NCBI GenBank assembly: GCA_020722705.1
Contig: DYKI01000005.1
Span: forward strand, 7,254-71,253
DNA from: Chthonomonas calidirosea
GTDB taxonomy: Bacteria; Armatimonadota; Chthonomonadetes; Chthonomonadales; CAJBBX01
DNA length: 64,000 nucleotides
Direction: 5' to 3'
Below, one piece after another: positions 10,675-13,843 of this stretch. How positions within the stretch are numbered: position 1 is the stretch's first letter; each line of letters opens with the position of its first letter. The position numbers and the translations under genes were made by a program. The notes beneath the pieces were generated by a model. It was given only the letters and a program-made list of their open reading frames with translations, was not told where the DNA came from and ran no database searches.

Positions 10675-10791
10675 GCGGTTGCCCGCCGCATGCATTGGTC
10701 ACCGGGGAACGCACTCTGGTTCCTTTCCGGTATCAGGATGAGTGCGGCGCCTCCGGCATACTCTGACAGCGCCGCCGGTCGAGGAGGCTCC

Positions 10792-12573
10792 ATGCATTCG
10801 GTATCAAGGCGGAGTGCGTCCGCACGATGGTGCGCTGTCGCGGCATGCTGTGTCGCGTCACTCCTGGTTGGGTGCGGCGGCGGAGGCTCCGGCGCGCGGA
10901 CCTTCAAGGGGCGTTCATTCGCGTTCTCGAACGGCTCACGTGCGCTCAGTATCGCGGTCGATTCCGCCGGCCGCTGCACCGTTGTCGCGTATGACGCTGT
11001 CCTGTTGCCCACGGCGGCCGGCGCCCAGGGCGCGTTCGCGGCCGGTGATGCCTTCTATGCGCAGACGGCGGACGGTCAGGTTCAGTTCGAAGGGCAAGCC
11101 GCGGCGTCAGGCGAGACGGTCTCATGCACAGTCAAGCGTAACGGAGCCACCCTGTTCACCACGGTCGCGACGGTGGTAGCCGCCGGGGCGGCGCCTCCAG
11201 CCGATCTCCTCGGTACCTTCTCGCGAATCGGCGGCGACGAGATCGGATACCTGACTGCGGACAGCAGCGGCCATGCGGCGCTCTGGGTCAGCACCGTGGG
11301 AGCGACAGGAGGGGATCTCCTATCGGTCGGTTCTGATGGGGCGCTGGCGTCCGCGGACGGCAGCACCCTCGGGCAGTTGACTGCCGATTCGGGTAACGTG
11401 GTCCTCGTGCTCACGCGGCTCAACGGCGTGCCGGTTGGCCTCTCACTCGACCTTCTTCGATCCTCGCGCGCCAAATGGACGTTCATGGTCTTCATCAACG
11501 GGGCAAACGACCTTCAGACCTATGGGCCACTCAACGTCAACCAGATGGAGAAGATCGGTTCGACGGCCGACGTCAACATCGTGGTCCAATGGAAGCAGGC
11601 CGATTGCGCCACTTGCGGCAATCCGGCGTGGGTCTCAACACGGCGCTACTTCGTGACGCGCGACCAGAACACAAACACGATCAGTTCGCAGCTTGTAGAA
11701 GACATGGGACCGAACGTGGACATGGGCGACTGGAGGGAACTGAACGCGTTCATCCGCTGGAGTCAGCAGCGCTATCCCGCCGATCGCTATGCTCTGGTGG
11801 TGTGGGATCATGGCGCGGGTTGGCGAAGCACTCGGGCCGGCGAACCGGCGCGCCTGCGGTCAGTCTCCATTGACGATTCGACAGGCAGTGAGATTCAGAC
11901 CTGGGAGCTGCCGCAAGCGCTGAATGTGTCGCCGAAACTCGACATGCTCATCTTCGATGCCTCGTTGATGCAGATGACCGAGGTTGCCTACGAGGTGCGC
12001 GACATGGCGGGGCTTATGGTCGGATCGGAAGAGAGCCCTCCCGGCGAGGGGTACGTGTATGACGCGTTCCTGCAGGACCTTGCCGCCAATCCGGACATGA
12101 CGCCTGCGCAGTTTGCGTCGAGTATCGTCAGTCGGACCCTCGAGAGCTACGGCACGGACACCAACATCACGCAGTCGGCGGTGGATCTGTCGAAGATGCA
12201 GGTTCTGGCCGATCGGCTCAACACCTTCGCCGGTCTGCTTTCGTTCCATGCATCGGCCGAAGCCGCGGCGCTCGTCGGAGCGCGCAAGAACGCGGAGTCC
12301 TATCTCTACCGCGACAACAAGGACCTTTGGCACTACGCTGAGCTCGTCCGCGTGAATGCCGGCGCCCCTGCGCTCAAGACGGCCGCGACGAACGTTCAGC
12401 AGGCTCTCGACGCAGCGGTCATTGCCGAGGCATCGGGCACGCTCCACCCGAACTCACACGGACTCGCCATCTACGTGCCCGATCCGTCGGGCTACCTGGT
12501 TTCCTACACAAACCTTGCCATTTCGCGAGTCACCGAGTGGGATTCGTGGCTGGTAAACCAGCCGCCCGGATAG
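10792..12573 (+). CDS. Clostripain-family (C11) lipoprotein with catalytic Cys replaced by Ser
   Basis: The 593-aa protein has a lipoprotein signal ending LVGC28, so it should be lipid-anchored outside the cytoplasm. Residues 30-220 are a non-recognised N-terminal domain. From about residue 222 (KWTFMVFINGANDL) it follows the peptidase C11 domain. The catalytic histidine is H340 in VWDHGAGW. The position of the catalytic cysteine (normally DACLM) reads DASLM with Ser391 (codon 11962-11964). The start is set by GGAGG 5 nt upstream of the ATG at 10792. It may be an inactive, binding-only or serine-dependent variant. C11 enzymes usually cleave after basic residues. Confidence 0.85.
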   Translation: MHSVSRRSASARWCAVAACCVASLLVGCGGGGSGARTFKGRSFAFSNGSRALSIAVDSAGRCTVVAYDAVLLPTAAGAQGAFAAGDAFYAQTADGQVQFEGQAAASGETVSCTVKRNGATLFTTVATVVAAGAAPPADLLGTFSRIGGDEIGYLTADSSGHAALWVSTVGATGGDLLSVGSDGALASADGSTLGQLTADSGNVVLVLTRLNGVPVGLSLDLLRSSRAKWTFMVFINGANDLQTYGPLNVNQMEKIGSTADVNIVVQWKQADCATCGNPAWVSTRRYFVTRDQNTNTISSQLVEDMGPNVDMGDWRELNAFIRWSQQRYPADRYALVVWDHGAGWRSTRAGEPARLRSVSIDDSTGSEIQTWELPQALNVSPKLDMLIFDASLMQMTEVAYEVRDMAGLMVGSEESPPGEGYVYDAFLQDLAANPDMTPAQFASSIVSRTLESYGTDTNITQSAVDLSKMQVLADRLNTFAGLLSFHASAEAAALVGARKNAESYLYRDNKDLWHYAELVRVNAGAPALKTAATNVQQALDAAVIAEASGTLHPNSHGLAIYVPDPSGYLVSYTNLAISRVTEWDSWLVNQPPG

Positions 12574-12584
12574 AGCGCGACCCG

Positions 12585-13058
12585 GTGAGCGATCTCGACG
12601 AGTATCGGCGTGCGCAGCGCTCGCTTCGGCGCGTGTTCGACGGTCTTACCGCGACACTGTGCCCTGACTGTGAGGACCCCTGCTGCAGGGTACCGGCGCG
12701 CGTTGCGGCCCTCGATGTGATGATCGCTCTGGCAGGTGGCTGGAACCGCGAGACGGTGGACGCTGATCCGGTCGTCATGGCCCTGGATCAGGCCTCATAC
12801 GCCCTCAAGCCCGGCGAGGAAGCGGCGGCTCTGCCTTGCCCGTTTCTGAAGGCAGACGGGTGCGTGTTTCCGGGCGATCTGCGTCCCCTGGAGTGCTCAG
12901 CGTATGTGTGCAAGTACATGCTTGCGGCCATGGATGCCCGGCAGCGCGCTCATGTGCGGCGGCTTGTTGCGGACATGAGGCGGGCACATGGGCGCATCTT
13001 CTCGACGTTCGAAGCCAGACTCAGGCGGCGATCACGCGAGTCCAAAGACATCGCCTGA
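12585..13058 (+). CDS. YkgJ-family cysteine-cluster protein
   Basis: The 157-aa protein has the cysteine pattern of the YkgJ / zinc- or iron-chelating family (PF03692): CPDCEDPCC near the N-terminus, then PCPFL, GCVFP, and ECSAYVCKY. These cysteines are expected to bind Fe-S or Zn. GTG 12585 is preferred because it avoids a 37-nt overlap with the protease gene that GTG 12537 would require, though neither has a good SD. Neighbouring genes give no clue to a substrate. It is convergent with the VanX-like gene. Confidence 0.75.
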   Translation: MSDLDEYRRAQRSLRRVFDGLTATLCPDCEDPCCRVPARVAALDVMIALAGGWNRETVDADPVVMALDQASYALKPGEEAAALPCPFLKADGCVFPGDLRPLECSAYVCKYMLAAMDARQRAHVRRLVADMRRAHGRIFSTFEARLRRRSRESKDIA

Positions 13059-13147: not shown

Positions 13148-13843
13148 TCAGCACGGGCGGTCGTGTCGGTCCATCGGCGGCGCAGGCACCAACCCGTAGG
13201 GGCATTCGGATGCGCCGGTACGCACGGCCCAGGCGGAGTCCCCATAGGAGTAGTGCCAGTATTCATCCTTGCAGTTGGAGAACCCGGCCTCGAGCATGGC
13301 ATGGACCAAGAGCCTGCGGTTCGCTTCGGCCTCGGGCGCCAAGCCCCGTACCCATGTCGGGGCCGCATCCCATCCGGCAAGCGGCGAGACCATGTCCAGT
13401 ATCTCGCCATCTGCCCGCATGAGCTGCACATCTACGGCGCCTCCTGTGCAGTGTCCCGGCGGGGCGGGCTGGTCATACGGCGCGAAAAACCGGTTGGCTG
13501 CCCGGTGCACGGCAGCGAGCGACCATTCCGGGTGCTCCAGTCTCATCTGTGCAAAGTAGCTGTCCCAATGTCGGCGCTGATCGTCTATGGTACGGAGTGC
13601 CGTGCTCACCCTCAGGCGCAACCCGGCGGGCAGGCTCGATGCTGCGCTGTTGAGCATCTTGGCGACCGAGATGCGGGCGAACGGCCTTGCCCGTCGGAGC
13701 ACGATCAGGCCCGGGCACGCGAGCCTGAGGTCCACCAAAGGCTCATCGTTCTCGCAGATATGGACGCGGTTGAGTGCAGCGATGGGCTCAGGCACTCCGG
13801 TCGGGCGGCTGATCGCGGGGCGCGTTGAGGCTCGGGGACGCAT
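13148..13843 (-). CDS. D-alanyl-D-alanine dipeptidase, VanX/DdpX-like (M15D)
   Basis: The 231-aa protein carries the M15 metallopeptidase zinc motifs HxxGxAxD (HCTGGAVD) and ExxH (EYWHY), separated as in VanX. Such enzymes hydrolyse D-Ala-D-Ala or related dipeptides in peptidoglycan turnover. No export signal is evident, so it is probably cytoplasmic and recycles wall dipeptides. There is no vanH/vanA neighbour, so glycopeptide resistance is not implied. Its ATG shares a base with the stop of the upstream gene (TGATG), showing translational coupling. Confidence 0.88.
   Translation of the reverse strand: MRPRASTRPAISRPTGVPEPIAALNRVHICENDEPLVDLRLACPGLIVLRRARPFARISVAKMLNSAASSLPAGLRLRVSTALRTIDDQRRHWDSYFAQMRLEHPEWSLAAVHRAANRFFAPYDQPAPPGHCTGGAVDVQLMRADGEILDMVSPLAGWDAAPTWVRGLAPEAEANRRLLVHAMLEAGFSNCKDEYWHYSYGDSAWAVRTGASECPYGLVPAPPMDRHDRPC

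Follow-up and report, generated by a model that had tools for sequence, protein, structure and literature searches.

To our knowledge, the fold shared by caspases, legumain and clostripain (clan CD) has so far been found only with a catalytic cysteine. The available part of a review on these enzymes treats clan CD as a clan of cysteine peptidases (PMC12445089). For the C11 enzymes within this clan, the accessible text of two papers identifies Arg190 of clostripain and Lys147 of PmC11 as the residues of self-cleavage (PMC11296011, PMC4850288), Asp177 as the S1 aspartate of PmC11, and Thr204 as a residue lining the S1 pocket of the same enzyme (PMC4850288). In the solved C11 enzymes, the Cys–His distance is given in the part seen of one of these papers as 5–6 Å (PMC11296011), which would be long for a direct hydrogen bond between serine and histidine. 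According to the portion available of PMC6642262, hydrolases in which serine was exchanged to cysteine in the laboratory mostly lost their activity unless additional changes accompanied the exchange. In the literature searched, with most subscription journals outside its scope, we found neither a described C11 or clan CD peptidase with a serine nucleophile nor a paper dealing with Armatimonadota together with clostripain.

The 64,000-nucleotide stretch of Chthonomonas calidirosea DNA analysed in this study (the window) contains a gene for a C11 homologue in which serine stands at the position of the catalytic cysteine (Table 1).

Table 1. Features of the Ser-type C11 gene and its product; positions are those of the window and residues are counted from the ATG at 10792.
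Feature	Positions	Strand	Basis or remark
Likely ribosome-binding site, GAGGAGG	10781..10787	+	four bases 5′ of ATG 10792
Ser-type C11 (clostripain-like) lipoprotein gene	10792..12573	+	593 aa, stop included in coordinates
Signal peptide ending in putative lipobox LVGC	10792..10875	+	Cys28 likely lipidated residue
N-terminal region, predicted small all-beta domains	10876..11469	+	AlphaFold2 secondary structure; weak fold matches
C11 domain, residues about 229–588	11476..12555	+	Pfam profile, alignment, fold matches
His340, predicted general base of dyad	11809..11811	+	sequence; conservation
Arg356-Ser357	11857..11862	+	aligned with clostripain autocleavage site Arg190; PmC11 has Lys147
Asp389, S1-pocket aspartate by alignment	11956..11958	+	aligned with PmC11 Asp177, clostripain Asp229
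Ser391 (TCG), nucleophile position	11962..11964	+	sequence, alignment
Ser415-Pro416, loop pair accompanying Ser391	12034..12039	+	aligned with PmC11 Glu203-Thr204

Gene, predicted fold and neighbourhood

The reading frame is open from an upstream ATG at 10690 (a long frame of 627 aa), and the start at 10792 was preferred because the ribosome-binding site and the signal peptide fit it. LVGC, located at 10864–10875 after a basic and hydrophobic N-terminus, is the presumed lipobox. The signal peptide with its lipobox cysteine supports the product being a bacterial lipoprotein, as had been proposed in a sequence-only reading of this DNA, which described it as anchored outside the cytoplasm. A simple regular expression detected a lipoprotein signal in 80 of 122 related domains with serine at the nucleophile position (Ser domains), and 22 more were cut short by the stretch fetched. 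The all-beta part that follows the signal peptide showed weak similarity to beta-barrel lipoproteins in the fold comparison, and the N-termini of more distant Ser-type C11 proteins were found to vary in length.

The C11 domain matched Pfam PF03415 (Peptidase_C11) with E = 4.2e-44 (152 bits against a cut-off of 25.8), and this match was the sole one in the 4.57-Mb genome assembly. The AlphaFold2 model (mean pLDDT 85.8, pTM 0.77) placed a C11 domain, with the predicted caspase-like alpha/beta/alpha fold of the family, after an N-terminal part built of beta structure throughout. Clostripain was the best solved match (Foldseek E 4.2e-18; Z 37.0, rmsd 2.3 over 342 residues). Model confidence was low for the stretch directly after His340, as might be expected of a flexible activation loop.

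The intact C11 histidine, the spacing of 51 residues and the serine at the nucleophile position, all reported in the sequence-only reading, were confirmed: His340 is part of a DHG motif starting at 11806, and Ser391 is part of DASLM. A catalytic cysteine nucleophile is the defining residue of the C11 cysteine peptidases. The protein thus belongs with C11 by sequence and fold, but its catalytic residue places it outside the C11 cysteine peptidases, and for this reason it was named a Ser-type C11 homologue.

Between 8060 and 13055, the + strand carries four consecutive genes, coding for a PP2C-type phosphatase, a HEAT-repeat protein, the Ser-type C11 protein and a small Cys-rich protein. This run was kept in six other genomes of the same family (20 stretches fetched), and no substrate of the Ser-type C11 protein was readable from the four conserved genes. 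The Cys-rich protein (12582–13055, about 158 aa) contains CPDCEDPCC and further Cys motifs and is without a Pfam match; we take it to resemble YkgJ-type metal-binding proteins. A Peptidase_M15 gene (D-Ala-D-Ala dipeptidase-type) was located downstream of the Ser-type C11 gene on the opposite strand (13148–13843).

Distribution and exchange of serine and cysteine

PF03415 was found to be present in 219 of 291 Armatimonadota genomes, usually with one or two C11 matches per genome. All matches listed by a search of 101 genomes were fetched, together with some, though not all, of the additional matches from the 291-genome search, and rows without either dyad column, identical domains and same-contig duplicates were dropped before counting (for the column conservation counts, also rows under 250 residues). 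The 164 distinct Armatimonadota domains obtained in this way comprised 122 with His and Ser, 37 with His and Cys, and five in which the His was lost. Ser forms spanned 20 family-level groups of the phylum. With an intact His, only Ser or Cys was present at the nucleophile position, and in all four domains where this position had changed to Asp, Pro or Gly the His was lost as well. The five His-less paralogues (L117, L102, L115, L116, and L122), among which Leu-Ser, Pro-Gly, Arg-Asp, Thr-Gly and Thr-Pro were seen at the two columns, all came from one family-level group. The only one retaining serine was L116, so that His was kept in 122 of the 123 Ser domains read within Armatimonadota; the other four were also without Ser or Cys. 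L117 (genome G079) was located directly after an intact Ser copy.

Outside Armatimonadota, all 107 domains read carried His and Cys: 60/60 from the phylum of Candidatus Riflebacteria, 44/44 from the phylum of Elusimicrobia, and 3/3 from Acidilobaceae. These domains were taken from the best-scoring loci first and from neighbours at the same locus, and represent a sample rather than a census of the many more matches that exist. Cysteine was also present at the site in seven out of seven further cases (Nostoc, Ammonifex, Nonomuraea, Gemmatirosa, Deinococcus, and two more genomes of the archaeal phylum to which Acidilobaceae belong). Genomes of the Riflebacteria phylum contained many C11 genes, with up to 24 matches in one genome (G299). 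Among viral sequences, 51 stretches in the viral_contigs collection matched a peptide pattern and none was confirmed as a relative; one weak relative was found in a phage collection.

A maximum-likelihood tree was built from 87 of 188 rows with the nucleophile column omitted; the rows set aside were the Cys rows of greatest divergence, the dead paralogues and some of the Ser rows. On this tree at least seven exchanges between Ser and Cys are required, or 14 changes when the codon classes TCN, AGY and Cys are followed; the number of Ser/Cys exchanges was nine once another 21 columns around the two active-site loops had been omitted. The main Ser clade enclosed five nested Cys groups, namely L235, L079 with L094, L048 with L050 (in the family of the window genome itself), L232 with L167 and L237, and L234, whose direct neighbour in genome G137 is a second C11 copy. 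In the second tree, with the 21 columns omitted, all five groups remained inside Ser clades, and the enclosing branches had bootstrap/SH-aLRT values of 100/99, 100/99, 100/100, 100/95, and 99/97. A topology uniting all Ser rows of the main clade to the exclusion of the nested Cys rows was rejected by the AU test (p 1.6e-30), a value not to be taken at face value as the group was picked after the tree had been seen.

A second Ser clade stood apart beside a Cys protein (L087, L085, L107, L077, and L065 in the 87-row tree, with L100 added in the larger row set). Support for the node that joins the main Ser clade was 83/83 in the first tree and 50/51 in the second, where this node included the Cys row L159. 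Since this node is weak and takes in a Cys row, and the deeper branches are weaker, we make no claim on how many times serine arose. Irrespective of its direction, the exchange between Ser and Cys has recurred with the His retained. The sequence-only reading had proposed an alignment of C11 homologues from Armatimonadota to see whether Ser is fixed; it holds in most lineages of the phylum but not in all, the exchange with Cys being repeated.

Among the Ser rows of the main clade, TCN and AGY serine codons switched at least five times. A change between TCN and AGY by single-base steps passes through Cys or Thr, and Thr was present at the nucleophile position in none of the domains read. The two adjacent C11 genes of genome G137 (C6, 1910000–1914600), one with Ser (AGC) and one with Cys (TGC, L234), form a natural matched pair.

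Conservation of the active site and the loop at residues 415 and 416

His340, Gly341, Asp389, Pro417, Gly420, Tyr423, Thr460 and Asp511 were invariant in all 122 Ser domains. The S1 aspartate stands two residues before the nucleophile position, as in C11. Residue 356 was Arg in 117 and residue 357 was Gly, Ala or Ser in 119 of the 122 Ser domains, and in the Cys forms outside Armatimonadota residue 356 was Lys (65/101) or Arg (34/101). The residues at 356 and 357 agree with the self-cleavage sites known from C11 enzymes. A basic residue is thus present at the self-cleavage position in the loop after the His, and cleavage at this site is predicted. Taken together, the features that a basic-specific, self-activating peptidase would need appear to be kept in the Ser domains. 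No acidic residue that could complete a Ser-His-Asp triad had been gained by the Ser group among the conserved columns. A newly gained triad of this kind was rejected on these columns, whose conserved acids also occur in the Cys forms.

Columns 416 and 415 showed the strongest association with the nucleophile among the columns ranked. Their equivalence to PmC11 residues was derived from the alignment, counted from Cys179. Ser415-Pro416 was present in 116 of 116 Ser rows of the main clade versus none of the nine nested Cys rows. Of 38 positions with conservation of ≥95% in the main clade, 22 were unchanged in every one of these nine. Glu414 and Leu392 also loosened in the nested Cys rows, and Cys forms outside Armatimonadota mostly had Thr-Glu at 415–416. 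In the second Ser clade (six rows), Ser415 was found in five and Glu416 in all six. Overall, Ser391 was accompanied by Ser415 in 121 of 122 Ser domains, and Ser415 also occurred in 5 of 35 Armatimonadota Cys rows. The dependence is therefore one-sided: Ser391 comes with Ser415, and Ser415 also occurs with Cys. When the coupling between loop and nucleophile was examined by independent pairs (seven pairs), Pro416 gave 6:1 (p 0.125) and Ser415 about 5:0 (median p 0.0625); with neither position at p < 0.05, this test is suggestive only.

Catalytic interpretation and comparison with known systems

The presence of serine across the phylum with the His retained suggests a protease with swapped chemistry and not a dead copy. 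On balance, we consider it somewhat more likely than not that the window protein is an active serine peptidase on a caspase-like fold, with predicted specificity for Arg/Lys. The broader claim, that these proteins form a natural serine peptidase lineage of clan CD in which Ser and Cys switched repeatedly within one phylum with a pocket loop changing in step, we regard as evenly poised. The sequence-only reading had left two options, a pseudo-peptidase and a serine-dependent variant. The evidence leans to the latter, since His340, the S1 aspartate and the activation-site Arg are kept and another loop varies together with the nucleophile; the former is the less probable of the two.

Residue identities, conservation, the predicted fold, the tree and the coupling of loop and nucleophile are what the analysis shows, and from these we infer how the protein may work. 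As a member of the large Armatimonadota clade of Ser-type C11 proteins, it would be exported and lipid-anchored in the membrane, the signal sequence being what indicates its location. It would be made first as a zymogen and open by a self-cut after Arg356. His340 would then activate Ser391 as the nucleophile, and Asp389 would hold the basic P1 residue of the substrate, with cleavage after basic residues. Ser415-Pro416, placed in the substrate pocket, may be the adjustment by which serine can function in an active site shaped for cysteine, and in the Cys lineages the loop would be free to vary. Two observations speak against serine catalysis: the long Cys–His distance of the solved enzymes and the absence of a gained acid.

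The main rival is a conserved pseudopeptidase comparable to SERA5, which we hold to be a real possibility though short of probable. The C11 pocket would in this case hold basic peptides, or basic tails of proteins, in the extracytoplasmic space and leave them uncut, Ser391 would be non-catalytic, and the nested Cys lineages would be reactivated enzymes. According to the part available of PMC4671257, the papain-like SERA5 has no activity with its Ser, gains activity with Cys, and has a non-enzymatic role. In the C11 protein PNT1, as far as the source seen goes, the single change C136S abolishes function, and the missing acidic partner in the Ser group points the same way. The pseudo-orthocaspases, of which the Ser-bearing ones are presumed inactive, also include a His-Ala form that keeps the His, whereas the Ser-bearing forms named in the accessible text have Tyr or Phe in its place (PMC6426788). 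Against a loss of catalysis stand the His and the activation-site Arg, whose conservation in the Ser domains would have no obvious purpose without it, and the dead paralogues of the same phylum, four of which have lost both His and nucleophile and the fifth the His alone.

Alternatively, Ser391 may serve an enzyme that transfers acyl groups or cleaves esters, for example one that joins or trims exported proteins at basic residues. Clan CD ligases and a transamidase were among the lower fold matches, and serine acyl-enzymes might partition differently from thiol ones; the retained zymogen-type site favours a peptidase, and we consider this alternative improbable. A sequencing error, a pseudogene or a misalignment hiding a nearby cysteine as the true nucleophile, to which the 34 of 122 Ser domains with Cys one residue before Ser could point, is so unlikely that we regard it as refuted: the window protein has Ala before Ser391, the eight cysteines of the 627-aa frame are all N-terminal of His340 (none after residue 309 of that frame), and the same Ser and His recur in 122 of the 164 phylum domains. 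Both circumstances that the sequence-only reading had named as fatal to its claim, an error at this codon and another cysteine as nucleophile, are thereby ruled out.

If the active serine peptidase reading is true, these proteins would document, in nature, the passage of a protease from one catalytic class to another; if they are inactive, they would constitute a conserved family of pseudopeptidases outside the cytoplasm to which databases would give the name of peptidases. With a Ser form that is spread across a phylum, keeps the other parts of the active site, alternates with Cys and has a loop varying in concert, it becomes testable what else must change when a protease trades thiol for hydroxyl chemistry, and nature supplies matched Ser/Cys pairs, including the adjacent copies in genome G137.

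We know of no nucleophile switching or coupled loop in SERA5 of Plasmodium. It shares with the window protein a natural Ser at the position of the catalytic Cys, and differs in having a papain-like instead of a caspase-like fold and in being inactive as Ser in the account available. The pseudo-orthocaspases and TbMCA4 (clan CD, C14-like) share the replacement of the catalytic Cys by Ser in many members, as described in the part of the source seen (PMC6426788); their named Ser forms (YS, FS) have the His replaced, whereas His340 is present here and the 122 Ser domains all have the His. PmC11 of Parabacteroides merdae (PDB 3uws, PMC4850288) shows the same fold and pocket positions, with Asp177 corresponding to Asp389, and differs by its nucleophile Cys179, by Lys147 at the self-cleavage place, and by Glu203-Thr204 in place of Ser-Pro. 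Clostripain (C11, clan CD, PDB 9cip) shares the fold, the place of the His, the S1 Asp and an Arg at the self-cleavage position. Compared to clostripain, the window protein has Ser in place of Cys231 and, in addition, a lipoprotein anchor, N-terminal beta domains and the loop pair Ser415-Pro416.
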